Part shown: positions 8,440-64,000 of the stretch, piece after piece
How the letters are laid out: every line of letters begins with the position of its first letter
How positions within the stretch are numbered: the first letter of the stretch is position 1
Assembly (NCBI RefSeq): GCF_000820845.2
Contig: NZ_CBXV010000004.1
Span: forward strand, 496,001 to 560,000
From: Pyrinomonas methylaliphatogenes
Lineage (GTDB): Bacteria; Acidobacteriota; Blastocatellia; Pyrinomonadales; Pyrinomonadaceae
Length of the DNA: 64,000 nucleotides
Direction of reading: 5' to 3'
Position numbers and translations under genes: made by a program
Notes under the pieces: generated by a model
The model's database searches: none
Told to the model about the DNA's origin: nothing
Seen by the model: the letters and a program-made list of their open reading frames with translations, nothing else

Positions 8440-9540
8440 TTACAGACTTCTTCTTGACGCATCGGCGATGATCTCTCGAAGCCGTTCGATGCTTCGTGCG
8501 ATGGAATAGAACTCGATGGCGCGCCGCCGCGCCGCTCGCCCGAGCGCCTGGGCTAGACCTGGATCTTCGAGCAGACGAACCATGTGCGCGGCCATCGCGG
8601 TTACATCCCCTTCGTCGACGAGATAGCCAGTCTGTCCTTCGACGACTATTTCCGGGATTCCAGCATGGCGCGTCGAAATGATCGGCAGCCCGCTCGCGCT
8701 CGCTTCAAGGATCGCCACGGGCGTGCCCTCTGAATCTCCAGAGCGCGCGCGGACGGAATGTTGGACGAACGCGCGCGCTCGTCGCATCTCGGCTTGGACG
8801 ACGGATGGCGGTTGGTGACCTAAGAATGTGACGGCGTGCGCGATCTTGAGGTCACTGGCCAGTTTGCGGCACTCGCTCAGTAGCGGACCATCGCCTATCA
8901 TACGCAGATGGGCCTGCGGATAAGCTTTGTGCGCCAGCGTGAAAGCGCGCAGCGTCAGGTGCGGAGCTTTCTTTTCAACGAAACGTCCGACATGGAGTAG
9001 GGTTGGTGGGGCGGTCTGAGGATTGGCTCCAGAGAACTCAGCGCAATCTACCCCGTAAGGGTTGTAGATGACTTTCTTTCGATCTGCGCCCAGAGAGATC
9101 AAGCGTTCACGCATCTCATGCGAGACGGCGATGATGGCCTCGGCATACTTCCATAACGCCGCATAACGTGTCCTGTAACTATCGAGCACGCGGCGATCGC
9201 TCGCGTCGTAACCGTGGAAGTGGACGATCAATGGGATATTGAGCTGTCGACAAGCGTCCATGATCAGGGCGCCGGTTGTGCCGTATTCGGCGAGAACGGC
9301 CTCCGGGGATAGTCTTTTTAGAACTCGGAGGTAAAGTTGTGTGGCCTGCTCTTGGTAACTGCGGTTGCGCAACATACGATCCACCCGCCCGATCAAGCGT
9401 CGAGAGAAAGCGAGATAGGGATGGCTCTTTTCGCCGATCACAGGGGGCCAATCTTGCACTATCGTGGCGGGCAAGCGTTCGGCGTGCGCACGAATAAATG
9501 TTTCTGTGATCGGACCGTGCTTGACAAGGCAAATGGACAT
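8440..9540 (-). CDS. Family 4 glycosyltransferase
   Basis: The 366-residue GT-B protein shows the GT4 signatures: an N-terminal domain with VHFHGYDAS, an inter-domain LLHVGRFVEKKAPHLTLRAF, and the C-terminal donor-binding EGTPVAILEASASGLPIIST followed by EIVVEGQTGYLV. These retaining transferases build exopolysaccharide or O-antigen units in the cytoplasm. It lies 25 bp from the flippase gene stop, in the same direction, so the two are probably translated from one mRNA. The start at 9540 gives the short N-terminus SICLVKHGPITETFIRAH, which fits colanic-acid-type WcaL relatives. Confidence 0.9.
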   Translation of the reverse strand: MSICLVKHGPITETFIRAHAERLPATIVQDWPPVIGEKSHPYLAFSRRLIGRVDRMLRNRSYQEQATQLYLRVLKRLSPEAVLAEYGTTGALIMDACRQLNIPLIVHFHGYDASDRRVLDSYRTRYAALWKYAEAIIAVSHEMRERLISLGADRKKVIYNPYGVDCAEFSGANPQTAPPTLLHVGRFVEKKAPHLTLRAFTLAHKAYPQAHLRMIGDGPLLSECRKLASDLKIAHAVTFLGHQPPSVVQAEMRRARAFVQHSVRARSGDSEGTPVAILEASASGLPIISTRHAGIPEIVVEGQTGYLVDEGDVTAMAAHMVRLLEDPGLAQALGRAARRRAIEFYSIARSIERLREIIADASRRSL

Positions 9541-9565
9541 TATCTCGGATAGCTTCCCTCCGAAA

Positions 9566-11035
9566 CTAACGGGAAAGCGCAGCTATGTATCTCGCCCGGA
9601 GCAAAAAGTATAGTACGCTGCTCAGCGTGAGCGATAATGCTAGCAGCCAAGCGCTTGTTTTGCTCAGTCCCGGCAGCGAATATCTGAGCGTAATTAGGGC
9701 GACAAGCAGGGCGAAGCTCTGACCACACGCTAAAAGCAGCCCGCGGGGGAGTTTCTTGCTGTCGAATATGGCAATCCGTTGAATGAAGCAAAGCAGCAGC
9801 GGTGCATTTAACATGAGATAGGATAGAGAATATGAGATGGCGACCCCGAGGGGCCCCCAAGGTAGACCGGCGATGATGGATAGCAAGCTGATCGCGCTAG
9901 AAGCGAGATTCCACCACATCAACTCTCGTGTGCGCCCTTGCGAGATGAAGAGCCAACCGGTGGTGTTGGCTAATGGTTGAACCAAGGCGGCGAGACCAAG
10001 CCATCGGAAGATACGGCTGGTCTCACCCCATTGAGGGCCGAGAAGCAAACTTATAGTCCAGTCTGCAGTCACAAGCAGAAAGATGACCAGCGGCATGGCG
10101 AGCAGCGAGGTAAGTCGAAGAAGCTTCAGGTAAGCTTCTTCATAGCTTTCGGGCGTTTTTCGAAGACGACTGAGCAGCGGGATGGCGACAAAGCTGAGCG
10201 GCGTGTTGATTAGATAGATTGGAAGGAACATGAGTTGGTATGCGCGATCGTAAAAGCCGAGCTGTTGCGCGCCCCAGTACCAACCGATGAGCATATTATC
10301 GGCGTTGCGCGAGAAGTAGTTGATGATGTTGGATCCCGTGAGATAGCCGCCAAAGCGAATCATCTCTCGCACGGGCGTCTGTGGGGGGCGAAGCGACGGT
10401 CGCCAACGACAGGCGATCCACGTTACGAGCACGGCGCTGGCGCTCGATGTTAGACTCATCGCGACAAGCGCCCAGTACCTGAGACCCTGAAGGGCGGCGA
10501 CGATCGCTATCGCGGTTCCCGCCGCAAGAGGCAGCAGATCGATCATCGCCAGAGTGAGGAAGCGCATCTGGCGTTTGAGCAGCGCTTGATGTTGGACCGT
10601 GAGGCTGCTGAGGAAGAGATTAACCGATAGTGCGAGCGTCACTGGACAGAGTCTGGCATCGGAGTACAGCTTTGCTAGGATCGGAGCGCATAGCGCGACG
10701 AGGAGCATTAAAAGCGCGCCGCTGATGGCATTGATCCAGAATAGGGCGCTGATTTGCGCTTGATCTATCTCTTCGCGTTGTATGGTGGCGGCGGAAAGCC
10801 CCAAATCTTTGAAGAGGAGCAGAAAATTCGTGAACGCCGTGACGATGGCGAACAGGCCGAAATCTTCTGGGGCGAGCGCGCGGGCCAGTGCGACGGTTGA
10901 GATCAAGTAAACCGCTGATTTGCCGATCTGCGCGCCGATGGTGATGCTGCTGCCAAGGATCATGTTGCGGTCGATTTCGACCGCTCGAGCGTCTGCCCCA
11001 CAACTCGTCGCTTGCGTGCGTGCTGTTCTCTTCAT
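9566..11035 (-). CDS. Polysaccharide flippase of the MOP superfamily (Wzx/PST type)
   Basis: The 489-residue protein has about twelve to fourteen hydrophobic segments with the PST-family opening GSSITIGAQIGKSAVYLIS and LARALAPEDFGLFAIVTAF. This identifies an oligosaccharide-lipid flippase that turns lipid-linked repeat units across the inner membrane. The start codon overlaps the stop of the upstream glycosyltransferase by 4 bp (ATGA), evidence for translational coupling. No Wzy polymerase or Wzz gene is visible in the window, so the pathway must be completed elsewhere. Confidence 0.9.
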   Translation of the reverse strand: MKRTARTQATSCGADARAVEIDRNMILGSSITIGAQIGKSAVYLISTVALARALAPEDFGLFAIVTAFTNFLLLFKDLGLSAATIQREEIDQAQISALFWINAISGALLMLLVALCAPILAKLYSDARLCPVTLALSVNLFLSSLTVQHQALLKRQMRFLTLAMIDLLPLAAGTAIAIVAALQGLRYWALVAMSLTSSASAVLVTWIACRWRPSLRPPQTPVREMIRFGGYLTGSNIINYFSRNADNMLIGWYWGAQQLGFYDRAYQLMFLPIYLINTPLSFVAIPLLSRLRKTPESYEEAYLKLLRLTSLLAMPLVIFLLVTADWTISLLLGPQWGETSRIFRWLGLAALVQPLANTTGWLFISQGRTRELMWWNLASSAISLLSIIAGLPWGPLGVAISYSLSYLMLNAPLLLCFIQRIAIFDSKKLPRGLLLACGQSFALLVALITLRYSLPGLSKTSAWLLALSLTLSSVLYFLLRARYIAALSR

Positions 11036-12297
11036 CTCGCGTGGAAAGCATCACTCCCGGCGGCGAGGTGACGTTCGATGATTGCGCACATCTTCTCCAA
11101 TCTCGAAGACCAATCGGCCAGCGCGGCAACGGCGCGGCGTCGAGAGCGCGCCGTCGCATCGTCAGGCGCCTGCAAAGCTTCTTCGATGGCTCGCAGGAAA
11201 GCCTCGGGCGTGGCTGGCGTAAGTGTAAGGATTTTATGCCTATCGTTGAATTCGCGGACGCTCGGCAGTTCGGTCGAGACCACTGGCTTGCCGACGGCGA
11301 GGTACTCGTTGATTTTGGTGGGGAGAACTGTCTCTGTATAGGAGTTTTGAATGTACGGGACGATGCATACGTCGAACTCGCGTATGTAGAAGACGAGCCG
11401 CTCATGAGGAAGCTGCCCGAAGATGTGGACATTGGGAAGCGCCGACAATTCTCTGAGGTCAGTCTGTTTGGGACCGATGAAGAGCCACGACCAATGGGCG
11501 CGCGCGCGTGCCATTTGAACTACCAGATCGAAGTCAACGTGTCGGTGTAAGCCTCCGACATAGCCGATGATCGGACGGGGCAGCGACTGTAGCCGCCGAA
11601 CCGCGTCATCGCCGAGGGCATGGCCGTTCTCTTCGCGTTCGAACGGGAAAGCTTGCAAGTTGACGCCGAAAGGGAAGATATGCACGTTGCTGTTATACTG
11701 CATGCAGTGTTTGGCGAGTTGGTTGTTCTGCGCGAAAACTATATCGCTCGTTTCGATAAGAGCGCGCTCGCTTTCGCGCAGTTGTGCGCGATATGGGGTA
11801 AGCTGCGAAAAGTCGGCGATGCAGTAATAGATGACGCGGCTCTGTGGCGTGCGCAGCATGCGTACTAGGTTCAACGCTGTATCGGTCGGCAGATAGGTCC
11901 AGATCAATGGATCGCGCATGCCGAGTTTACGCGCCGCCCTTTTGATCAGCGGTAGAAGCAGGTGGCGATTGATCTGTTGTCGCCAGCTTGGACCGAAAGG
12001 TGGAAGAACGAGGGGTGAACATACATGGAGGTTATCTTCGATAGAGCGCACTCCGCCAGATTCGAGCGATTCTATCCACTTGCCTAGGCGATTGATCACA
12101 CGGCGCGAATCGCTCAATCTTGGTGAGCGCACGCCGGTGTTCTCGATGTATAGGACACGATTTCCGGCGCGTGCGAAACGGATTGCTATCTCTTGATGCC
12201 CTTGCCAAACGAAATCCCATTCGATGCTGGAGATGTAGATTATATCTCGACCGCTGATCATGAAGATTATGTCGCGAGTGTCTTTGATCAAGCGCAA
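11032..12297 (-). CDS. GT4-like glycosyltransferase
   Basis: The protein has a GT-B layout: an N-terminal segment IIYISSIEWDFVWQGHQEIA, a middle IGYVGGLHRHVDFDLVVQMA that starts the C-terminal Rossmann domain, and TVLPTKINEYLAVGKPVVST, the donor-site region. Two starts are possible. The longest frame begins at a TTG at 12297 (421 residues), while an ATG at 12261 would remove 12 residues and put the conserved part closer to the N-terminus; neither has a clear ribosome site. This is the first gene of the four-gene glycan cluster and overlaps the flippase by 4 bp. Confidence 0.88.
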   Translation of the reverse strand: MRLIKDTRDIIFMISGRDIIYISSIEWDFVWQGHQEIAIRFARAGNRVLYIENTGVRSPRLSDSRRVINRLGKWIESLESGGVRSIEDNLHVCSPLVLPPFGPSWRQQINRHLLLPLIKRAARKLGMRDPLIWTYLPTDTALNLVRMLRTPQSRVIYYCIADFSQLTPYRAQLRESERALIETSDIVFAQNNQLAKHCMQYNSNVHIFPFGVNLQAFPFEREENGHALGDDAVRRLQSLPRPIIGYVGGLHRHVDFDLVVQMARARAHWSWLFIGPKQTDLRELSALPNVHIFGQLPHERLVFYIREFDVCIVPYIQNSYTETVLPTKINEYLAVGKPVVSTELPSVREFNDRHKILTLTPATPEAFLRAIEEALQAPDDATARSRRRAVAALADWSSRLEKMCAIIERHLAAGSDAFHAR

Positions 12298-49626: not shown

Positions 49627-50297
49627 GGATTGCCGGATTGTTGAAACAAGCAGACAGGTGCAGCGAAGTTTGTCGAACAACGTCCCCTGTCGAAAACCGA
49701 CTTCCGCCACCAGCGTCGCTTATCACGCTCATTAATCTGGTGGCCGGACGCGAAAGAAATATCGTCGTCACGGCCAGCGCACGCCGCGTCGCTTTGCTAA
49801 GCGAATAAGATCGACCTCGCTGCCGGAGCCTGCTTGGCTACCATTAGCAAGCTGCGAAAAAAAGACCTTGACAAGGGATGATCGCAAGTCGTGTTGTTTG
49901 CTCGTCCCACCTTTCGATTCAGGAGAGAAAGGCTCCTCGCCACGGTGGCGCACGTCGTACTCTCTCGAAGTCGACGATGATGATCGGTCGCAGGGGAGCC
50001 GTTGGCTCACGGCATGCTCGTCGAGCTAGTCCTTCGTGGTGACCGTCTAGCTCCACCGGCGACGAAATCCACCCGTGAATCGGGAGGCGAGCACTGAGGT
50101 TGTTTTTGATTTTGCGAGCGCGAACCGTTGGGCGGTTCGGTGTTCGGTTCATCCAAGTTCATCAAAGGCTTGCTTCGCGACCCCGACCGAGACGATCCCT
50201 CGACGCGAAGAGCACACTCGAAGAGCACAGTGGCTGACCGGATAACTCCGGTTCGATGCTGATTTAATCTCTCTGTTCCATCTAGGAGGAGATGGTC
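49627..50297. other. Intergenic region of ~670 bp before the RHS gene
   Basis: No gene is supported here. The minus-strand frame that extends into the RHS gene is a shadow. A short doubled CGAAGAGCACA stands near 50205-50230. The region probably holds the RHS promoter, followed by AGGAGGAG at 50284-50291. Confidence 0.45.
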
Positions 50298-53200
50298 ATG
50301 ACGCACTCGCCGCGCGTGGTCCATCGTTCGGTCATTGAATTCGGCAAGCGATTCCTCAGTATCGCGCTTGTCTGCATGCTGCCCGTTGCGCAGGCTCCGG
50401 CGGCACCCAAGATGCTCCACATGCAGGCTACCGTGTGGTGGGCCGATGTCGTCTTTTGGCTGCGCGCTGTCGAGGCTGGCAACCGCGCTAAACCCCGGGC
50501 TGAGTTGCGCCAAGAGCAACAGAGCGAACGGGCGGCGCGGCTTGCGCGGTTGGAGATCTTGCCGGGCACGGCGACGGTGGTCGCGGGCAGTCGCGTCGTC
50601 TTCACGGCCATCGGGCGAGACCGACAAGGCAATCCCATCGGCGGACTGGAGGTTGTCTGGTGGTGTCGCGAGGTCGAAGGCGACAAGCAATGGCGGTTGA
50701 TCGGCGGAGCGTTCGATGCTCGCGTCGCTGGCAGTTACACGGTCACGGCCGAAAGCGGCGGTCTGGTAGCGCAGGCGAGCGTGACGGTGACTGGCGAAAA
50801 CGGGCAAACGAGCGGCGGCGCGCGCCGTCGCGCTTTGCGCGCGCGTGCGAGTCGGCGCGTATCGTCGAAAGATGGTCCAGCGGCACGCTCTTCAGCCGAA
50901 GGCGCCGAGCGTGCCGGGTCGCCCGACGGCAGCGGCGTGGAGCAGGCGCTTATGCGTCCGCCGGACGATTCCGGTTGGGGTGAAGACAACTACTGGGCGG
51001 CGGATGATCCGGTGAATCGCGTCGGTGATCCACCCGGTTATCCGCAAGACGACGGTGCCGGCAGCGGCAACTTTCAACTGGCAGCGCCCGTGGTGAGCCT
51101 GCCGGGGCGTGGCCTGTCGGTCGCGCTGACGCTCGCCTACAACTCGCGCGTTTGGACCAAAGCCGGAAACGAGATCAGTTTCGATGCCGACCGCGGATGG
51201 CCCGCGCCCGGTTGGGCTTTGGGGTTCGGCAAGGTCGTCGGCATGGGGCTGGGTGGTTCGATGATCATCGAGCCGGACGGGACGCGCCGCGCTTTCACAG
51301 GAAGCGTGACCAACTACGGCAACGGCACGGTCTACTTCACTGGACACACCACCGACGGTAGTCTGATCGATTACCAGACCCATTCGTACAACGGCGTCAT
51401 CAGTTGGGCACAAGCGAAGCTGCCGAATGGGACTGTGGTCAATTACGGCGCGGCGGGCGATGGAGCGGTCTATCCGACTCAGATCATCGACGCGAGCGGC
51501 AACTACATCACGGTCGCCTATGTCGACAACCGCGGACCGCGAATTCAAGCCGTCACCGATACGCTCGGGCGCGTGATCGAGTTCCACTACGACGCCAACG
51601 GTCTGTTGACGGCGGTCACCGGGCCGGGACTCGGCGGCGCGCAGCGCACGCTTGTGCGTTTGCACTATCGGCCGCTCGCGTTGAACTACGGTTTCACTGG
51701 GCTCAACGTTCACGTTCGCGCTTCTACAGTGTGGGTCTTAGATGCAATCTACTATCCGGCAACTCAGACGGGCTACTGGTTCGGCGACGCGGAGTCGTAT
51801 TCATCTTACGGGATGTTGGCCAAGGTCGAAGAGCACCGGGCGATGAACTTCACGGCTGCCTCGTTGACCGAGCAGGGCACAGTCGAACCAGGCCTGATGA
51901 CGCGCCGACAAGTGTACAACTACACGCTCGGACCAGACTACAGTTTAACGGACGCGCCGACCTACACGACGCTCACCGAAAGTTGGGCCAGCATGGACAC
52001 TGATCCGGCCGTCACGCAGTACGCCATCTACCAGAACGCATCTCCGCGGCGAGTGGAGATCACGCGCCCGGACGGAACCAAAAGTATTCAATACTCGTTC
52101 AACGCCCCCAATCAGTACAACGACGGGTTGCTCTATCAAGACGAGTTGCGCGACGCGAGCAACAACCTGCTCATGCGCAGCGCGGTCACATGGGAGCGCG
52201 GCGCTTACGATTCGCCGCGCCCGGCGCGCATTGAGATCACGGATGAGCGCGGGCAGATGACGGCGACCGAATTCAGCTACGGTCCGGCCTACAACCAAGT
52301 GACGGAGACGCGCGAGTACGACTACGGCGGGGCGAGTCTCCGGCGTGCAACGCGCACCGAATACGAGACGAGTGCGAACTACACTAACCGGCACATCTTC
52401 AACCTCGCGCGCGTGGTGGAGACTTACGCGGGCGACGGTACGACGCGGCTTTCGCGCGTCGAATACGTTTACGATTCGGCGACGCTGCAAGATGCCCCCG
52501 GCGTGGTGCAGCACCTGCCGTCGCACAACCCGTACGCGCCGCCTGTGGAACTATGCCAGTGGCAAGACGATCCGAACGATCCAGATTACCAGAACCCGGG
52601 ATGCGTCGCTTGGGATCCGCGTTGCGATGGCTACGTCGATCAGATCTATGTGTGCGACACATATCCACAGTACGATCCGAGCACGGCCTATCGCGGCAAC
52701 GTCACGCAGATCAAGAAGTACGTTGATGCCGCCAACTTAGCTGATCCGATCACCGAAACGCGCCGCTACGACATCGCGGGCAATCTAGTCGCCGCTTCGA
52801 CCAGTTGTTGTGAGCAGACTTCGTGGAACTACACCGTCGATACGCAGTACGCTTATCCGCAAGGGCAAACGCGCGGCGCGGCCGATGCTTCCGGCCCGCG
52901 GGTGACGACCAGCACCGTCTACGATTTCAGCACCGGCCTAGTGCTTTCGACGACGGACGCCAATGGTCGGACCAGTCAGACCGTTTACGATGCGAATACG
53001 CTGCGACCGCAGATGGTCTACGCGCCGACCGGAGCCTACACCGCTTACGCCTATGATGATGTGGCGATGGTCGTCAGTGAGACGACGCGCACCGCCGACG
53101 GCGCGATCGCGAGTCAGAGCGTACGGCGGTTGAGCGGGCTGGGCCAGATCAAGCGCGAAGAAGCGCTGGCGCCGGGCGGCGCGTGGGATGTGGTCGAGTC

Positions 53201-56200
53201 GCAGTACGACGAGCTGGGCCGACTCTGGCGCCAGACGCGTCCGTATCGGGCTGGGCAAGAACAGCCGCAGTGGAGCGAGACCGTCTACGATACGCTGGGG
53301 CGCGTCGTCCTCGTGCGCATGCCCGATGGGAGCGAGGCGCGCGTCTTCTACAACGAGAGTCAGCGACCTGACGTGGCCAGCAACGAGCCGGGGCAGACCG
53401 AACGCCATGTGGATGCATGGGGGCGACAACGGTGGTTAAGATCGGATGCGGACGGACGTTTGGTCGAAGTCGTCGAACCCAATCCGCAAGGTGATGGATC
53501 AGTCTGGTCCGGCGGTTTGGCGACGCGCTACGTCTACGATCCGCTCGGCAATCTGGTGGAAGTGGTTCAAGGGGCGCAGCGGCGGCGCTTCCGCTACGAC
53601 TCTCTAGGCCGACTGACACATCAGAAGCTGGCCGAACAAACGGCGACATTGAACGACGCTGGGCAGTATGTCGGAAATGGTAGCTGGGGTGAAGTCTTCG
53701 CCTACGACGAGCGCTCGAATTTGATCTGGCGCGTCGACGCCCGCGGCGTGCGCACCGTCTTCAACTACAACGGCGATCCGCTCAACCGGTTGCAATCGGT
53801 CACGTACGACACGAGCGGCGCCGGACAGCCGGTGGCGCCCGCCGCCACGGTGCGTTACGAATACATGACCACCGGTGACCTGACGCGCGTTCGGCGCGTA
53901 GTGGCCGAAGGCGTGAGCACCGAGGAGTACGAGTACGACGGCGAGGGTCGAGTTAGCCGCCAGCGCGTGATCTTGGCCACGCGCCCGAACCACCCGCTCG
54001 AGACCGACTACCTTTACGACACGCTGGACCGCGTGACGGACGTGCGTTATCCGGCGCAATACGGCCTGGGTACGGCACCGCGCAAGGTGGTCCACCACGA
54101 TTACGATGTTGCGAGTCGGTTGAGCAGTTTGAAGGTCGATGGCACGCCTTTCGCTTCGAACCTGCAGTACAACGCCGCGAGTCAGACCACCTCGCTAACG
54201 GTCGGCAGCGGCGCCGGTCAGTCGGTCGAAAACTACTCGTACGATCCGGCGACCGGACTCCTCGTCAACCAGCAGGTCCTGCGCGGTGGCACACGGCTGC
54301 TCGATCTCAGCTACGACTACGTGCGTCCGGGGACGACGGGTGGGCGGACCGGGCAGCTGACGCGGCTCATCAACAATCTGGATCGCAACAAAGACAAGAC
54401 GTATGAGTACGACATGCTGGGACGTTTGATGCGCGTGACGAGCGGCAACAACCGATGGTGGCAGCAATACAGTTACGACCGCTACGGCAACCGCACGCGC
54501 GTCGATGTCGGCGGGCAACTGGCGCTCGGCGCGGTGGAAGGCGCCGGTCAGCAGTCAGTCGGCGCAGCGAGCGACAAAGGGAAAGACGCCAGCGGCGCGC
54601 GGCTGATCGCCATGCCCAAGGTGGAATTGCCGACCGAGTTGCTTGCGTGGCGCTTGAATCCGCTCGAAGGATTGGATCCGTGGCGCGTCGTGAGCGACGC
54701 GCCCTTTTCGCCCTTTGCCGGCTTGTGGCAAGCGACGGGGACCGCCCAGCGCGTGGAGATAAGACCCGGCAACATCACATTGCGCGTGGGCGAACGGGTC
54801 CGTTTTCAAGCCACGGCGCATGATGCACTGGGGCGCGCAGTGCAGACGGGCCGCCTCGTCTGGCGTGCTTTCGATCTCGGCACGGGGCGTCCGGTGGTGA
54901 TGCCGCCGACGGGCGAGTTCACAGCGCGGAGGGTGGGACGCTACCGTCTCTTCGCCAAACATCAAGCCGGGCCGCGCGCCCACGCCGTCTGGAGCAGCGT
55001 GACGGTGACGGTGATCGAAGCGCGCGCCGGAGCGAACACAACAAAGACGAGCCAAGCGACGGGCGACGCAGCGCCACGTGAGCCGAACGCCGCGACGACA
55101 GTAGAACCAACGCGGCCCAATTGCCCGCCGGAAGATCCGTGCTATCCGACGTGCGATTGCGGCGGGTGGAACGAGCCGCCGGTGGCAGTGCCGGGCGGTC
55201 CATACGGCGGCATGGCCGGGCAAGCGATCCAGTTCGACGGCTCGGGCTCGTACGATCCGGACGGCTGGATCACCGACTACTGGTGGGATTTCGGCGATGG
55301 CAACACAGGCAGCGGCCCCACCGTGCCGCACAGCTACGCGCAGGCCGGAACCTACACCGTGCAGTTGACGGTGCGCGATGACAGTGGGCAGATGCGCAGC
55401 GCTACGACAAGCGTCACGGTGAGCGCTCCGCCGCCAGCGCCTTACAACAACGCCGCCTTCGTCACACAATCGGTGCCGACGACGTTGATCACCGGGCAAG
55501 GGACGGCCGTTTCGATCACGATGCGCAACACGGGGACGACGACATGGCGCGCAGCGGATGGATACAAACTAGGTTCGCAGAACCCGCAAGACAACACCAT
55601 CTGGCGCGATGGGCGCGTCATGTTGCCGCACGACGTCGCTCCGGGGCAAGAGGTGACGTTCGAGTTTTCGATCACGGCACCCGCACAGGCTGGGACGTAC
55701 AATTTTCAGTGGCGGATGGTGCGCGAAGGGGTCGAATGGTTCGGCGACTGGACGCCTAACTTAGCCATCACCGTTTCGGAGCCACCACCGCAATACGAGG
55801 GCTGGTTCGATGGGGCTGACTGCGTTCGGCTCACAGGTTGGACCTGGGATCGTGTTCGACCCGGCGTCCGGCAGTCGGTGGATCTATTTGTTGATGGAAA
55901 CTTCCTCGCGCGGGTGGTGGCGGATCAGTACCGTGCGGATCTGGCAACAGCGGGCATCGGCGATGGGCAGTACGGGTGGAGTTACGCCCTGCCTGAGAGC
56001 TTGCGCGACCGTCAAACCCACACGATCGTTGCACGCATCGCCAACAGCGGGTATGAGTTGGGTAGTTCACCTAGACAGGTGCAGTGTGCGCCGTGGCGCG
56101 CAGCCAGCTTCGTCCGGCAGGAAGTCGCCACTGAGATGGTGGTGGGGCAGCAATACAACGTGTCGGTGACGTTGCGCAACAGCGGGAGCGGAGTGTGGCG

Positions 56201-58532
56201 CGCGGCGGACGGATACAGGTTAGGGTCACAGAATCCGCCGGACAACACGACATGGGGAGTGAATCGGGTGGCGGTGCCGACGGATGTGTCGCCCGGCGCG
56301 GAAGTGACGTTTCAATTCACAGTGCGAGCACCGGCCACGGTTGGACAGTACAACTTCCAGTGGCAGATGGGGCAGGATGGAGCCGGGTGGTTTGGCGACG
56401 TGACGCCGAATGTAGTTGTCAACGTGGTGCCGCCGCCGAACCAAACGCCAGTGGCGGTTGCAGGCGGGCCGTACAGCGGGCAAGCGGGGCAAGCTGTTCA
56501 GTTCGATGGGCGCGGTTCATACGACCCGGATGGCCAGATCACGAGCTACGTGTGGATGTTCGGCGATGGAACGGGAGCGAGTGGAGCGACGCCTGTGCAC
56601 GCCTATTCGCAAGCTGGCACCTATACAGTGACGCTCACGGTGACGGACAACAATGGTGCGCAAGCGAGCGCACAGAGCACGGCGACCATCAGCAATCCGC
56701 CGCCCGCACCGACCCCGACGCCAACACCAACACCAACACCTACGCCGACACCACCGAATCGCAGGCCCATCGGCTGGCTTGATGGGATCGACAGCAATGG
56801 CATGGCCTTTGGTTGGACGCTTGATCCGGACGCGGCGGCCGAATCGATCGAGGTGCTTTTCTATGTCGATGGTCCAGCGGGCACAGGGCGGTTTGCTGGC
56901 ACGGCGCGTGCCAATCAGCCACGTCCGGATGTCAATCAGGTGACCGGCTATCCTGGCGATCATGGTTTCAATTGGCGGATAGGGGAGGAGTTTCGCGATG
57001 GAGTGAGTCATAGTTTGTGGGTTTATGGGGTTGACAGAGCGGGACAAGGTGGAGAGGTTGAGTTGTTATCGGGGGCGCCAAAGCAGTTTAGGCTGAGCCC
57101 TGGGGGAGTAACGCGCGACGGGCACGCGTCGTTGAGCTATGATGAAGCGAGCAACCGGATCAGCGTGGCTGGGTGGGAGTACGATGCGGCAGGCAATCAG
57201 ACGCGTATTCAGACAGGCAGTGGCGGGTGGCAGCGGCTAGAGTACGATGCGGCCGGTCGTCTGGTCAGAGTTAGAGATGAAGCAGGAGGTGTGCTGGCAA
57301 GCTACACGTATGGTGCGACGACCGAGAGATTGATCAGTGAGGAAGGGGATGTACGCACCTACTATCTGTGGAGCGGGAGCAGAGTCATCACAGAGTACAC
57401 GGAAGTCGGCAGTTCTACAGAGCCGGTCTGGACGAAGCAGTACGTCTATCTAGGTGCGAGACTGTTAGCGACAATCCACCCATCAGGTGAAGGAAATGAG
57501 AGAGTAGAATTCCATCATCCGGACAGGCTTGGGACACGACTAGTGACCAACAATCAAGATGGCTCGTACTATGAGCAGGTGACGCTGCCATTCGGAGTAG
57601 GACTCGAAGCTGAATCGAGTGGTGCGACGAACAGGCGGTTTACCTCGTATGATCGCTCGTCAGTGACAGGGTTAGACTATGCGGTGAATCGGCACTACGA
57701 TCCACAGCAAGGTAGATTCACGCAGGTCGATCCGATCGGGATGAAGTCGGTTGACCTGACCGATCCACAGACGTTGAATCTGTATGCCTACGTCAAGAAT
57801 GATCCGGTAAACTTCACCGATCCGAGTGGGTTATTGCGGGTTGCGGTGGTGGTCAACTGTCGGACGAACTGGGTGTGGAAGGAGCATGTGGAGGGTGGAG
57901 GCGATTGGTACGACAAGGGCGAGGTGTGCGAGTTGATGGTGATCGAGGTCGGTGGAGGAGGTGAGGTTGGTGGCGGCGGAGGCGGCGCGCCTGTGCCGGT
58001 GCAGAGGCAGAACAACGCGCCACAACAGAATGATTGTCAGCGGTTTGCCAGCATTGTTGAGCGAATTGCAAATGAAACTATCGGGTTACGTCCCGACATT
58101 CCGGGGTTAGATGTTCAGTTGTTCATGAATCGGATGGCTACTACATTCACTGAATTTCCTAGCGCCACGCTTCCAGCTGTAATTGGTCTTGAAGGGCGCA
58201 GTCGCCCTGCCATGACGTTTGGAAGCAGCGGATTTGCTCGACCATATTTCGAGCCGGATGCTAATCAGGTGAGGCACGCAGTTGGTGGGCTGATCGCTGG
58301 TTACGTGGGAATTCCGCTTGATGATCCAGTATTTGGCCTGGGGATGAACAACAGAGAGAACCCTGCTGACCCTGTACATGGGGTGCCGGACATCAACTTG
58401 AACAATCAAACAGTGCCAATGGGGCGGAGATTAGCTATGAACGCTAATAGTCTCGCTGTTCGTGGACCCGTTGGCGCAGCAGCCGCGAGAGCGCTGGCAG
58501 ATTGGATCAGGAACACCCTTTGTGAGGGTTAA
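50298..58532 (+). CDS. Secreted RHS/YD-repeat protein with PKD and Ig insert and a variable C-terminal tip
   Basis: The ATG at 50298 (8 bases after AGGAGG; another ATG at 50292 is too close) gives 2744 residues. In order: a signal peptide (KRFLSIALVCMLPVAQAPAAP); an Ig-like domain (nt 50535-50790); the RHS opening NFQLAAPVVSLPGRGLSVAL; and many YD repeats to about 54520. A ~2.6 kb insert follows: a second Ig-like domain, PKD 1 (55170-55430), an NBR1-Ig-like domain, a GWFDGADC module, another NBR1-like domain, PKD 2 (56440-56700), a Thr-Pro stretch and a GWLDGIDS module. The RHS core resumes (NRISVAGWEYDAAGNQTRI) to YVKNDPVNFTDPSGL at about 57830. The last ~230 residues are an unrecognised tip after a poly-Gly hinge. 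Such shells enclose and release toxic tips. Confidence 0.88.
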   Translation: MTHSPRVVHRSVIEFGKRFLSIALVCMLPVAQAPAAPKMLHMQATVWWADVVFWLRAVEAGNRAKPRAELRQEQQSERAARLARLEILPGTATVVAGSRVVFTAIGRDRQGNPIGGLEVVWWCREVEGDKQWRLIGGAFDARVAGSYTVTAESGGLVAQASVTVTGENGQTSGGARRRALRARASRRVSSKDGPAARSSAEGAERAGSPDGSGVEQALMRPPDDSGWGEDNYWAADDPVNRVGDPPGYPQDDGAGSGNFQLAAPVVSLPGRGLSVALTLAYNSRVWTKAGNEISFDADRGWPAPGWALGFGKVVGMGLGGSMIIEPDGTRRAFTGSVTNYGNGTVYFTGHTTDGSLIDYQTHSYNGVISWAQAKLPNGTVVNYGAAGDGAVYPTQIIDASGNYITVAYVDNRGPRIQAVTDTLGRVIEFHYDANGLLTAVTGPGLGGAQRTLVRLHYRPLALNYGFTGLNVHVRASTVWVLDAIYYPATQTGYWFGDAESYSSYGMLAKVEEHRAMNFTAASLTEQGTVEPGLMTRRQVYNYTLGPDYSLTDAPTYTTLTESWASMDTDPAVTQYAIYQNASPRRVEITRPDGTKSIQYSFNAPNQYNDGLLYQDELRDASNNLLMRSAVTWERGAYDSPRPARIEITDERGQMTATEFSYGPAYNQVTETREYDYGGASLRRATRTEYETSANYTNRHIFNLARVVETYAGDGTTRLSRVEYVYDSATLQDAPGVVQHLPSHNPYAPPVELCQWQDDPNDPDYQNPGCVAWDPRCDGYVDQIYVCDTYPQYDPSTAYRGNVTQIKKYVDAANLADPITETRRYDIAGNLVAASTSCCEQTSWNYTVDTQYAYPQGQTRGAADASGPRVTTSTVYDFSTGLVLSTTDANGRTSQTVYDANTLRPQMVYAPTGAYTAYAYDDVAMVVSETTRTADGAIASQSVRRLSGLGQIKREEALAPGGAWDVVESQYDELGRLWRQTRPYRAGQEQPQWSETVYDTLGRVVLVRMPDGSEARVFYNESQRPDVASNEPGQTERHVDAWGRQRWLRSDADGRLVEVVEPNPQGDGSVWSGGLATRYVYDPLGNLVEVVQGAQRRRFRYDSLGRLTHQKLAEQTATLNDAGQYVGNGSWGEVFAYDERSNLIWRVDARGVRTVFNYNGDPLNRLQSVTYDTSGAGQPVAPAATVRYEYMTTGDLTRVRRVVAEGVSTEEYEYDGEGRVSRQRVILATRPNHPLETDYLYDTLDRVTDVRYPAQYGLGTAPRKVVHHDYDVASRLSSLKVDGTPFASNLQYNAASQTTSLTVGSGAGQSVENYSYDPATGLLVNQQVLRGGTRLLDLSYDYVRPGTTGGRTGQLTRLINNLDRNKDKTYEYDMLGRLMRVTSGNNRWWQQYSYDRYGNRTRVDVGGQLALGAVEGAGQQSVGAASDKGKDASGARLIAMPKVELPTELLAWRLNPLEGLDPWRVVSDAPFSPFAGLWQATGTAQRVEIRPGNITLRVGERVRFQATAHDALGRAVQTGRLVWRAFDLGTGRPVVMPPTGEFTARRVGRYRLFAKHQAGPRAHAVWSSVTVTVIEARAGANTTKTSQATGDAAPREPNAATTVEPTRPNCPPEDPCYPTCDCGGWNEPPVAVPGGPYGGMAGQAIQFDGSGSYDPDGWITDYWWDFGDGNTGSGPTVPHSYAQAGTYTVQLTVRDDSGQMRSATTSVTVSAPPPAPYNNAAFVTQSVPTTLITGQGTAVSITMRNTGTTTWRAADGYKLGSQNPQDNTIWRDGRVMLPHDVAPGQEVTFEFSITAPAQAGTYNFQWRMVREGVEWFGDWTPNLAITVSEPPPQYEGWFDGADCVRLTGWTWDRVRPGVRQSVDLFVDGNFLARVVADQYRADLATAGIGDGQYGWSYALPESLRDRQTHTIVARIANSGYELGSSPRQVQCAPWRAASFVRQEVATEMVVGQQYNVSVTLRNSGSGVWRAADGYRLGSQNPPDNTTWGVNRVAVPTDVSPGAEVTFQFTVRAPATVGQYNFQWQMGQDGAGWFGDVTPNVVVNVVPPPNQTPVAVAGGPYSGQAGQAVQFDGRGSYDPDGQITSYVWMFGDGTGASGATPVHAYSQAGTYTVTLTVTDNNGAQASAQSTATISNPPPAPTPTPTPTPTPTPTPPNRRPIGWLDGIDSNGMAFGWTLDPDAAAESIEVLFYVDGPAGTGRFAGTARANQPRPDVNQVTGYPGDHGFNWRIGEEFRDGVSHSLWVYGVDRAGQGGEVELLSGAPKQFRLSPGGVTRDGHASLSYDEASNRISVAGWEYDAAGNQTRIQTGSGGWQRLEYDAAGRLVRVRDEAGGVLASYTYGATTERLISEEGDVRTYYLWSGSRVITEYTEVGSSTEPVWTKQYVYLGARLLATIHPSGEGNERVEFHHPDRLGTRLVTNNQDGSYYEQVTLPFGVGLEAESSGATNRRFTSYDRSSVTGLDYAVNRHYDPQQGRFTQVDPIGMKSVDLTDPQTLNLYAYVKNDPVNFTDPSGLLRVAVVVNCRTNWVWKEHVEGGGDWYDKGEVCELMVIEVGGGGEVGGGGGGAPVPVQRQNNAPQQNDCQRFASIVERIANETIGLRPDIPGLDVQLFMNRMATTFTEFPSATLPAVIGLEGRSRPAMTFGSSGFARPYFEPDANQVRHAVGGLIAGYVGIPLDDPVFGLGMNNRENPADPVHGVPDINLNNQTVPMGRRLAMNANSLAVRGPVGAAAARALADWIRNTLCEG

Positions 58533-60003: not shown

Positions 60004-60228
60004 ATGCTGAAGCTGGCAGACCTCAAATTCAATCTCTGGCGAGCGATGAATAGAAGGTGGGTGGTAGGTTTGCGGGATGAAAGCAGCGAACTGGCGATCA
60101 ATGGCGGGGGGCGAGGAGTCACCATCGTTGCCCGTTATGACGAGCAAGTGTGGGGAGTATGTTTGCTTCGTCTTCGATGGTTTATACTTGCTGAGCAAAC
60201 GAAGTCGGAGCAGAAGAGAGGGGGATGA
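60004..60228 (+). CDS. Hypothetical protein of 74 residues, doubtful
   Basis: The frame starts at the ATG at 60004, with GAGGAAG close upstream, and overlaps the start of the DUF433 gene by 4 bp. The product (LADLKFNLWRAMNRRWVVGL, later VARYDEQVWGVCLLRLRW) has no recognised family. It may be real or chance. Confidence 0.3.
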   Translation: MLKLADLKFNLWRAMNRRWVVGLRDESSELAINGGGRGVTIVARYDEQVWGVCLLRLRWFILAEQTKSEQKRGG

Positions 60229-60548
60229 GCTTTATGAACCGAGCGACAGCTTACGAGCACATCGTTCTTGACGAGGCTGGCGTGCCGACGATCGAAGGGA
60301 CGACGATGAAGGTCGTCGAGTTAGTGTTGGAGATGTTGGCTTATGGGTGGAGTGCTGAGGAGTTGCAGTTTCAGCATCCATACTTGACGTTAGGGCAGAT
60401 CCATTCAGCATTGGCTTACTATTGGGATCATCGAGAGGAGTTCGAACGCGAGATCGAGCGACGGCTAGAGCGGGTTGAGCAGATTAGGCGTGATGTTGGT
60501 CCGTCGGAGTTGGTCGAGCGTCTCAGGAAGAGAGGGTTGCTGGCATAG
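60225..60548 (+). CDS. DUF433-domain antitoxin
   Basis: The 107-residue protein has the DUF433 winged helix: ATAYEHIVLDEAGVPTIEGT, the helix VVELVLEMLAYGWSAEELQ, and HPYLTLGQIHSALAYYWDH with the recognition helix. The C-terminal charged helix probably blocks the toxin. A second ATG at 60234 has better spacing behind GAGAGGGGG than the one at 60225. Its stop overlaps the next start by one base (TAGTG). DUF433 proteins are paired with DUF5615 PIN-like partners in VapBC-type modules, as here. Confidence 0.85.
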   Translation: MSFMNRATAYEHIVLDEAGVPTIEGTTMKVVELVLEMLAYGWSAEELQFQHPYLTLGQIHSALAYYWDHREEFEREIERRLERVEQIRRDVGPSELVERLRKRGLLA

Positions 60549-60895
60549 TGTCGGTCATTCTCTACATGGATGTTCACATCCCACGGGCAATCAGTGTTGG
60601 ACTGCGCGCGCGCGGCGTTGAGGTGATAACAGCGCAGGAGGACGGAGCTGCGGAATTAGATGACGCGGCACTGCTCGATCGAGCGACCGAGATCGGCTGC
60701 CCACTCTATAAGCAAGATGATGATTTATTGGCCGAAGCGCATCGGCGGTGGCTTGCCGGGGAGCGGTTTGCTGGGGTTATTTACTCGCATCAATTGCGCA
60801 GTCCGATTGGCAAATGCATTGCCGCTCTCGAATTAATTGCAAAGGCTTGTGATCCTGCTGATTTGGAGAACAGGATCGAATTCATTCCGTTCTAG
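60548..60895 (+). CDS. DUF5615 PIN-like toxin (predicted RNase)
   Basis: The 115-residue protein starts with GTG and has the PIN-like layout: YMDVHIPRAISVGLRARGVE with the first acidic residue, AALLDRATEIGCPLYKQDDDLL with the acidic cluster, and a closing hydrophobic strand-helix. These acidic residues are the presumed metal site for RNA cleavage. It is coupled to the DUF433 gene. The pair separates two RHS fragments and so may have been inserted among the tips. Confidence 0.85.
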   Translation: MSVILYMDVHIPRAISVGLRARGVEVITAQEDGAAELDDAALLDRATEIGCPLYKQDDDLLAEAHRRWLAGERFAGVIYSHQLRSPIGKCIAALELIAKACDPADLENRIEFIPF

Positions 60896-61811
60896 CTGTT
60901 ACTCAACTACCGCACACGCAGAGTTTTCTCACGATCAATGTCTTTACTTTCGTTATGTGGTGAACTGCGGGACAGTGCGGCAGATAGACAAGGTGGTAGG
61001 TTACAGTCGGGACCAAGCCGGGCAGGTGGTGGCGGTGACGGGGGCGAACCGTGGCGGGGAGAGAGTGTATGCGCAGAAGATTCGGTATCGGGCTTCGGGG
61101 TTGGTGAAGCAGGTGAGCTACGGGAATGGGCGACTGAACTTCGTGGATCCGATGGGTATGTTTAGACAAGGGCCATGTCGCAGTGGATACGACTACGCAA
61201 CCGGTGCGTGTCGGGACACGGACGGAGGCGGTGGAGGAGTTAATTGGTTGCTGTGGCGATCTTACTTTGGCAGTAGTCCACAGCCCTCCATCTCGGACGA
61301 TTGGAGCGGAGGTGGTGGCGGCGGAGGCGGCGCGGCTGCGCCGGTGCTGACTCAGACTGTGTCGATTAAGGGCCCTTGTAATGTGCCGGACTTTGCTAGT
61401 CTTTCTCAGGTAAAACAGAGTCAATTAGAGCAACTCGGGGTAAGCGCGAGTCAGTGGAATAGCTTGAGCAATAATCAACGGCTTGGATTTTTCAATGTTA
61501 CCGGAGCCATCGCTGCCGCAGGGCTGTCACTGAGCGGATGGAGAGTACATTGGGATGCCGGAGGTATTCAGCAAGATCGTACGATCTTCGTTGCTGGTGC
61601 AGGGGCCACCAATTTATTAGTTCAAGTACAAGCATCAAATTCTTTCTCCCGCGACATTGGAGGTAGGCATGGAGCACACAGTGAGAGCTACCGACGGAAT
61701 GTGTTCAGCAAGAGTTTGCAGCTTTCTTTCACTCGCGATGGTAAGTACCTTGATGCAGACATTGACCGCTTCTCGCCATTGGCCGTTGATCGGCTATCCC
61801 ATGATAGGTAA
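60896..61811 (+). pseudogene. RHS fragment with internal deletion and truncated tip (orphan tip 3)
   Basis: From about 60960 the frame encodes YD-repeat sequence (VVGYSRDQAGQVVAVTG, IRYRASGLVKQVSYGNG) and jumps directly to the core end LNFVDPMGMFRQ near 61135, so the usual core of ~150 residues is missing. A Gly-rich hinge follows (DDWSGGGGGGGGAAAPV), then a ~160-residue tip which ends in SFTRDGKYLDADIDRFSP and stops soon after, at TAA 61809. The tail looks truncated. There is no start codon with signals, and no immunity-like gene follows. It is probably a silent remnant. Confidence 0.72.
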
Positions 61812-61895: not shown

Positions 61896-62205
<310 letters not shown>

Positions 62206-62347
62206 GCCTGTCACAATGACACTACCGGCAACCCGAGAGGGGCCGATGTCTTTTGTTGCTCTTGCACGAGCCTCGACGGCGGGGCGCCGAAACTAGTATT
62301 ACTTCGTTTACCATCAACTATCGCGGAAAAGGAGGCAAACTCTCGCC

Positions 62348-64000
62348 ATGACATCTAAACCGAAGTGGTATTTCGAACCTGTCGGACCGATGGGCGGCGC
62401 GACGGGGAATGCGTTCGCGAATGTCCTCCAGGCTGCCGGAATCGACCCCGAAGCAGAACTCGCCCGGGAGGCGATCCAGAATTCGTGCGACGCCGCGAAG
62501 GAGGGGCCGAGACGAGTGCGTGTGGTGTTCCGTATCGTAGCGCTCGAGGGAGACGCCAAACAGCGCTTCATCGAGGCTCTTTCGCTCGCGCAGGGGATCG
62601 GGAAACGCATGAACTATGTCAGCCTCGCGCGCGACAACTGTCTCGCCGAGCCTGAGCGCCCCCTCCATCTGCTCTTCGTAGAAGATTACGAGACCAAAGG
62701 GTTGTCCGGCGACCCCCACCAGCGGTGGTCGCACTTCCATCGACTCTTGTTGTCCGTCGGTGACAGCACTAAAGCGCTCGAGTCGAGAGCAACCGGTGGC
62801 TCCTACGGCTACGGTAAGTCCGCACTGAGCCTCAATTCGCGCCTGCGCACGATCGTCGCCTACAGCGCATTCAGGCCCGATGAAACCGGCGCCACCGCCC
62901 GACTCATGGGCTGCGCGTATTTGGATGCTCACGAATTCAAAGGCAAGCAGTGGACGGGCCGGGGCTGGTTCGGGGTTCGGCGCGCCGGCCACGAGATTAT
63001 CGTCGACCCACTCCGGGACGAGGAGGCGCACGCGTTCGCGGAACTGCTCGGGTTCCGCAGCCGCCGCAATGAAGAGCATGGAACTTCGATTCTCATCGTC
63101 GACTCTCACGCCCACGATCACCAGCGGATCCTCCGCGGGATAGAAGAGTGGTGGTGGCCCCGGCTTCTGGACCAAGAGCTCGAAGTGGTGGTGGAAGCTG
63201 AAGGCAAGGAATATTTTCCCCAGCCGAAGCAGCGTCAGGATCTCCTGCCGTTCATCGAGTGCTATTCGCTCGCTGTCGAGCGTGCGCAGCCAGCCGGGCC
63301 GCATCAAAAAAGCGACAGGTTCAATCGACTGCGGGGGCTTTCTCTCGGCGGTTACGGCTTGCAGGTTCTGCCTGCCGATCTGGCCGACGAGTTCCCGGAA
63401 GAGAAGCTCGGCCGTGTCGCGCTGATCCGCTCGCCCAAGATGGTGGTGGAGTACGCGCAGATGGGAAGGTCGACCCCCGCAGCGGTCGGCGTGTTCCTGG
63501 CTGACTCCGACATCGACGACATCCTGAAGCTGTCGGAACCACCGAATCATGACCGCTGGGATCCGGAGTCGCGACGGCTCGAGGTCGCGAAGCCCGACGA
63601 GGACACTGCACGCGAAGTCGTGCGGCAGGTTCGAAAGCGCCTGAAGGACCAGATGCGGAAGCTCCAGGCGCAGGCGAGCCCGCCGAGACCGAGGGAGGAG
63701 CGTCGGCTGCGCTTCCTGGAGCGAGAGCTCGGTGCTCTGTTCCGGCCGCCGATGCGGGGCGACGGCTGGGAAGGCGTTACGGACCCTGTGGAGATCCGCT
63801 TCCGCGAAGGGCCTGCTATTCGACCATGCAAATCCGACAGCATCGAAACCTTCGCCACAGTGGCACTGAGGCTCCGGTCGGATGCAGAAGACGATTCGAC
63901 CGAAGCCATCGTTCGAGTTCGTGTCCCGGTTCTCGAAGACGATCACGGTAGGGAAGGCGACCTTTTGCAGGTCACGATCGAATTCGAGAACGGCAATCCA
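62348..64000 (+). CDS. GHKL (Bergerat-fold) ATPase, MORC/MutL-like, partial at window end
   Basis: From the ATG at 62348 the frame is open to the end of the window (551 residues, 3' end outside). The N-terminal domain has the GHKL motifs: AREAIQNSCDAA with Glu41, Asn45 and Asp48; LFVEDYETKGL with Asp113; and ATGGSYGYGKSAL with the lid glycines. The rest has no obvious membrane segment or nuclease motif. AAAAGGAGG lies 12 bases upstream of the ATG. Related prokaryotic MORC-like ATPases occur in restriction-type islands next to Z1, DUF4420 or AIPR genes; whether these follow cannot be seen. A long minus-strand frame here is its shadow. The high GC suggests transfer. Confidence 0.72.
   Translation, partial: MTSKPKWYFEPVGPMGGATGNAFANVLQAAGIDPEAELAREAIQNSCDAAKEGPRRVRVVFRIVALEGDAKQRFIEALSLAQGIGKRMNYVSLARDNCLAEPERPLHLLFVEDYETKGLSGDPHQRWSHFHRLLLSVGDSTKALESRATGGSYGYGKSALSLNSRLRTIVAYSAFRPDETGATARLMGCAYLDAHEFKGKQWTGRGWFGVRRAGHEIIVDPLRDEEAHAFAELLGFRSRRNEEHGTSILIVDSHAHDHQRILRGIEEWWWPRLLDQELEVVVEAEGKEYFPQPKQRQDLLPFIECYSLAVERAQPAGPHQKSDRFNRLRGLSLGGYGLQVLPADLADEFPEEKLGRVALIRSPKMVVEYAQMGRSTPAAVGVFLADSDIDDILKLSEPPNHDRWDPESRRLEVAKPDEDTAREVVRQVRKRLKDQMRKLQAQASPPRPREERRLRFLERELGALFRPPMRGDGWEGVTDPVEIRFREGPAIRPCKSDSIETFATVALRLRSDAEDDSTEAIVRVRVPVLEDDHGREGDLLQVTIEFENGNP

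Follow-up and report, generated by a model that had tools for sequence, protein, structure and literature searches.

The GHKL ATPase gene at the end of the window opens a five-gene operon that we read, with a probability of about 0.6, as a restriction-like anti-phage system of the paraMORC/PDC-M33 class, in which a methylase would mark self DNA and the products of the first three genes (A, B and C) would act on unmarked DNA. The parts of this reading differ in strength: the assignment of the operon to its family is very probable, a role in defence is likely, and the proposal that A, B and C form the restricting arm is tentative, falling a little short of even odds. The window is the whole 64,000-nucleotide stretch that was analysed (G000:C4:496001-560000, G000 being the source genome, Pyrinomonas methylaliphatogenes). 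The same contig was read onward past position 64000, and positions in L002, the locus that includes this further region, become window-equivalent positions on addition of 57999. The features discussed below are:

61954-62205 of the window, plus strand: hsdM C-terminal remnant, upstream flank of the cassette (Pfam N6_Mtase, 6e-13)
62329-62335 of the window, plus strand: good ribosome-binding site of gene A, AAGGAGG, read from the sequence
62348-64000 of the window, plus strand: gene A, first 551 of 599 codons, GHKL ATPase (paraMORC-type/PDC-M33A), from the open reading frame, motifs and PADLOC
L002 6148-7092, plus strand: gene B, 314 aa, no known family
L002 7100-7849, plus strand: gene C, 249 aa, Pfam DUF6339
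L002 7846-9123, plus strand: C5 cytosine methylase, 425 aa, Pfam DNA_methylase PF00145 (1.4e-37)
L002 9136-9564, plus strand: Vsr, 142 aa, Pfam Vsr
L002 about 9600-11424, with a frame break: hsdR remnant, downstream flank (SWI2/SNF2 region, T1R_D3, T1RH C-terminus)

The ATPase and the genes that follow it

The preliminary description had noticed an intact GHKL signature in a frame cut by the window end, and reading onward confirmed it: the frame stays open up to position 64000 and continues intact to a stop at window-equivalent position 64147 (L002 4349-6148), giving a protein of 599 aa. EAIQNSCDA, VEDYETKGL and GGSYGYGKS are all found in A, together with a fourth GHKL motif, GTS, at residues 245-247. 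An alignment of A with eight relatives, the majority from distant phyla (n=9), shows invariant residues in every motif (R40, E41, Q44, N45 and D48; D113, T116, G118 and L119; G150, G151, G154, G156 and K157; G245 and T246), so that the motifs are not a chance occurrence. The minus strand has a 560-aa frame at 62318-64000, most likely no more than a shadow cast by the ATPase gene.

The label "MutL/MORC-like" given to this protein holds, judged by sequence, at superfamily level only. Where MORC proper carries the S5 motif GhXhhpXXRhl, A reads RVALIRSPKMV (R for G, K for R), and by its motifs A is a paraMORC-type relative, not MORC proper. It has an ExxxH motif (E397-H401) near the end of the S5 region, invariant in the nine-sequence alignment; the article by Iyer, Abhiman and Aravind presents ExxxH as the hallmark of paraMORC2 (PMC2292703). 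The motif is present in 27 of 27 aligned relatives, nine of them outside the trio A-B-C, and is therefore non-discriminating in this set, which leaves the paraMORC2 label for A plausible, not proven. Against the PADLOC model PDC-M33A (PDLC04582) A scored 9.4e-32, a partial match with its best stretch at 35-252 of 599. A Pfam search of A gave no family match, a profile search against solved structures gave a weak topoisomerase IV match and nothing else, and no nuclease domain was detected. The AlphaFold model of A (window part plus its nearest relative, L003) had a pLDDT of 33, and the S5 fold is unreadable from it.

Downstream of A on the same strand lie B, C, the C5 cytosine methylase and Vsr, with gaps of -1, +7, -4 and +12 bases; this tight spacing indicates a single operon. 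The suggestion that the ATPase might be the first gene of a paraMORC-type defence operon is thus supported, both by these neighbours and by the PDC-M33 matches of A and C. Of the partners anticipated downstream (Z1, DUF4420, AIPR or a methylase), the methylase was found, and the other three are absent from the operon.

The individual genes differ in how readily they are recognised. C scores 31.7 bits against Pfam DUF6339 (cut-off 23.2) and 1.3e-6 against PDC-M33C (PDLC04586); a profile search against solved structures returned weak, chance-like armadillo-repeat matches, none convincing. B had no family match in Pfam, no match to PDC-M33B (PDLC04583) at E<=1, and nothing in the same structure search. 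The methylase has the catalytic motifs PPC, ENV and QTR, with the DruM-type methylase DruM2 as its best PADLOC model (2.4e-95), and Vsr, which retains the PD and HGCFWH positions, gives 6e-30 in alignment with E. coli Vsr (1cw0). Among the operon genes no nuclease was recognised besides Vsr, and no cognate restriction endonuclease; nor did alignments of B and C contain a nuclease-like set of conserved residues. The operon looks self-contained, since no C5 methylase other than its own was detected in the genome and Z1 was undetected there by a search whose positive control worked. DUF4420 was also undetected in the genome, a weak negative because its control was silent.

Genomic setting and nearest relative

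The hsdM gene preceding A is indeed dead, as first described: the remnant covers only positions 253-309 of 311 of the N6_Mtase profile, the end of the model. With this tail before it and the hsdR remnant after it, the five-gene cassette appears to sit intact inside a wrecked type I system. A second hsdR-type C-terminal remnant, with an internal TAG, lies elsewhere in the genome (G000:C8:570562-571404); the one beside the cassette is frameshifted.

The stretch further upstream, called toxin-rich in the preliminary description, is so in part. DUF433 and DUF5615 genes overlap by 1 base at 60225-60895, the usual make-up of a toxin-antitoxin-like pair, and a 2746-aa open reading frame at 50292-58532 has many YD/Rhs-like repeats and PKD-like stretches, recognised by eye. 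A shorter fragment at 60837-61811 has similar Rhs-core-like sequence and a different tail; together the two look like an Rhs protein whose alternative C-terminus has been displaced.

The nearest relative, L003, is a Limisphaera metagenome contig, possibly mis-binned, with 76% identity in A, 67% in the methylase and 59% in Vsr. Its cassette also lies between type I pieces, preceded by an HsdR N-terminus and a scrap of hsdM and followed by the C-terminal part of hsdR. Its A ends early and its methylase lacks the first part. In place of B and C, which are absent, it has a Schlafen group 3 helicase gene (L003 9445-11289), between the shortened ATPase and the N-truncated methylase. The hsdM remnant at 61954-62205 has 81% DNA identity to L003 1964-2148. 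The comparison does not bear out a shared insertion junction: the two loci are homologous in the hsdR flank downstream but differ in their upstream hsdM pieces. A low dN/dS of 0.16/1.23 for A between G000 and L003 does not show selection specific to the cassette, since the hsdR remnant is just as low (0.15/1.05).

The A-B-C trio in other genomes

A, B and C occur in constant order in Halomicrobium, Synechococcus, Rhizobium, Agrobacterium, Halobaculum, Haloplanus, Halobacterium, Priestia, Planococcus, Lactococcus and Ligilactobacillus plasmids. An unverified faecal "phage" scaffold and two further genomes of the host's phylum also carry them in this order, as does, probably, a Deinococcus plasmid. 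This range includes Haloarchaea, Cyanobacteria, Bacillota and Rhizobiaceae, and restriction-modification genes usually adjoin the trio. The Priestia proteins match PDC-M33A, PDC-M33B and PDC-M33C over their full length (1e-209, 1e-81 and 2e-94). Relatives of C were found by way of the ATPase and of the DUF6339 protein from Priestia, because direct tblastn with C found no match in plasmids or phages (with B, none in plasmids); viral contigs scanned with C proteins and the ATPase alignment yielded no relatives.

A leave-one-out DUF6339 profile recovered C of G000 at an E value of 1.7e-32 (one-sequence search), and on such profile evidence DUF6339 can confidently be regarded as one family across all trio loci. 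The same cannot confidently be said of B: the G000 protein scores only 5.0 bits in the leave-one-out profile of B-position proteins, and the PDC-M33B match is also missing for those of L010, L016 and L017. Conservation of P14, R90, G145 and A149 in a 14-sequence alignment, and of the position of the gene, hints at, and does not prove, one fast-evolving family.

Within the phylum, DUF6339 was found in 3 of 396 genomes, always adjoining A; it was seen in no other genome sampled from the family of the host. This rare and patchy occurrence fits lateral spread, and it is one reason why we consider it very improbable that the operon serves the upkeep of methylation, with a solitary methylase, repair by Vsr, and A as a MutL-like partner of Vsr. 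C5 methylase and Vsr pairs do exist outside defence, as in E. coli Dcm-Vsr, and A has GHKL motifs in common with MutL; a role in upkeep would nevertheless leave aside the apparently lateral distribution, the position of the cassette inside type I remnants and its co-occurrence with restriction genes.

The neighbourhoods bear on which protein might do the cutting; the counts, taken from annotation and tblastn, are small and have no formal background. Nine of the 14 trio loci have a C5 methylase no more than about 10 kb away, and in three of them (G000, the Synechococcus locus L016 and G342/L035) it follows directly in the operon. Vsr was seen nearby in three (G000, L018 and L054), and it also adjoins A in L003. 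These associations, together with the retained core motifs of Vsr, would suit a scheme in which Vsr is itself the restriction nuclease, loaded or activated by A, B and C where sites are unmethylated, in the way that MutL stimulates Vsr and MutH during repair; the link between MutL and Vsr is discussed in PMC2292703. We regard this scheme as improbable, given that Vsr was not seen near the trio in 11 of 14 loci, including L035, the closest intact operon, and that C5 methylases are commonly accompanied by Vsr for repair.

Other trios keep more varied company. L054 has a C5 methylase, AlwI and Vsr as neighbours, L020 a MutH/Sau3AI enzyme and a C5 methylase, L051 an AlwI enzyme, and L052 type I-like and helicase/GIY-YIG genes; Z1 adjoins the trio in L017 and L045. 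In the tree, A of G000 groups with L003 and L035, and then with L017 and L034 (support 99/96). The gene order is Z1-A-B-C in L017 and, running to the contig end, Z1-DUF4420-A-B in L034, which places the Z1 and DUF4420 neighbours, as far as the tree tells, in the sister clade of G000 A. These two predicted neighbours of the ATPase thus do occur in the sister clade, and neither was detected in G000.

Such diversity, and the lack of an obvious nuclease in B or C, argue for the chief rival to our preferred reading, namely that the trio serves as an accessory or guard module to whichever restriction-modification system lies nearby, looping DNA to help cutting, or sensing a failure of restriction and stopping the cell. 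We hold this to be rather unlikely: G000, L016 and L035 have the trio and a methylase in one operon, with no restriction enzyme recognised in the vicinity, and the G000 genome has no detected Z1. Carrying a similarly low probability is the broader idea of A-B-C as a portable, nuclease-agnostic, ATP-driven module swapped among restriction systems, with G000 as a reduced form holding the trio and methylase alone. If true, C5-methylase type II, MutH-type, Z1/DUF4420 and GIY-YIG systems would share a DNA-clamping or licensing step, and the G000 trio would work without any classical restriction enzyme.

Two haloarchaeal plasmids each hold two ATPase copies with a C5 methylase between them (L015 699-2597, minus strand, and 8992-10881, plus strand; L046 606-2498, minus strand, and 8965-10869, plus strand). 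The tree pairs these copies crosswise, L015_A with L046_A2 and L046_A with L015_A2, which makes the double arrangement common to both plasmids. A second, separate GHKL clade of the host's phylum (L038, L040 and L041) has similar company, adjoining C5 methylase and/or Vsr genes, and lacks DUF6339 save for a weak match in L038.

Proposed mechanism and comparison with known systems

It is established that C5 methylases place marks on DNA, that Vsr nicks it at the T:G mismatches left by deaminated 5-methylcytosine, and that GHKL-S5 ATPases form dimers on ATP and clamp DNA. Mechanistically, the methylase of the operon would mark host DNA, and A would dimerise on ATP and clamp or loop DNA like the ATPase modules of MutL, MORC and topoisomerases. 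Together with B and C, A would then act on unmarked incoming DNA, triggering its cleavage or blocking its use, and Vsr most likely repairs the T:G mismatches arising from deaminated 5-methylcytosine. Besides this general knowledge, the scheme draws on the proposal that paraMORCs loop DNA between recognition and cleavage sites (PMC2292703) and on VcSduA, a GHKL-Shedu protein (paraMORC3) whose ATPase mutant lost activity and whose ATPase and fused nuclease are both needed for phage restriction (PMC12137116).

Taken globally, the defence-operon reading is favoured by the tight operon, the Pfam and PADLOC matches, the full-length match of the Priestia trio, the co-occurrence with methylases, the constant adjacency of the rare DUF6339 to A, and the preserved motifs of methylase and Vsr. 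It is weakened by Vsr being the only nuclease recognised in the operon, by the missing PDC-M33B match of B, and by the AlwI-type, MutH-type, Z1 and GIY-YIG genes near other trios, each of which may be the real nuclease partner.

As to whether the operon is known or a new variant, the paraMORC/PDC-M33 class has already been described computationally. PDC systems are computational candidates whose validation is mostly pending (PMC12988326, PMC10855318); our literature search found no mention of DUF6339 or PDC-M33, no report of PDC-M33 tested for defence activity, and no biochemistry for the trio. A compact operon with the sole C5 methylase detected in its genome offers a convenient test case for a MutL/MORC-type clamp in DNA restriction and for the role of DUF6339, in a group of prokaryotic ATPases from which, as PMC2292703 argues, the MORC chromatin proteins of eukaryotes likely arose.

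Compared with classical type II restriction-modification, the operon has the DNA methyltransferase but no recognised restriction endonuclease. With Druantia it shares a DruM2-like methylase, without a large helicase (the DruE-type partner) among the operon genes. VcSduA resembles A as a GHKL ATPase used in phage restriction, but has its own DUF4263 nuclease domain. Mza (MzaABCDE) is approached through the sister-clade ATPase of L034, which stands beside Mza-like Z1 and DUF4420 proteins (MzaC 4e-87, MzaD 2e-9), whereas A of G000 is not recognised as MzaB and its operon lacks Z1, DUF4420 and AIPR. The putative defence system type I, as outlined in PMC9523054, comprises Z1, PD-(D/E)XK, a cytosine methylase and three further genes, and is linked to DNA-repair endonucleases. 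Our operon likewise has a C5 methylase, a repair endonuclease and three extra uncharacterised genes, and the relative L034 shows the Z1-DUF4420-A-B order; of the core, however, our operon holds only the methylase. The three further genes may be A-B-C.

The paraMORC2 and related restriction-modification operons, described in 2008 with methylases and Vsr (PMC2292703), share the GHKL motifs, ExxxH and the methylase and Vsr neighbours. The G000 operon differs in having no superfamily II helicase, as do a minority of the MORC neighbourhoods in that source, and in DUF6339 and B, which its accessible text does not mention. The PADLOC-DB 2.0.0 phage defence candidate PDC-M33 is alike in the matches of A and C and in the one-strand order A-B-C, as in the Priestia locus and L020; the matches differ in B and in the partial coverage of A, and in G000 the trio shares its operon with a methylase and Vsr. 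The operon belongs to a family predicted from genomes, and is set apart within it by a divergent B and a reduced gene set.
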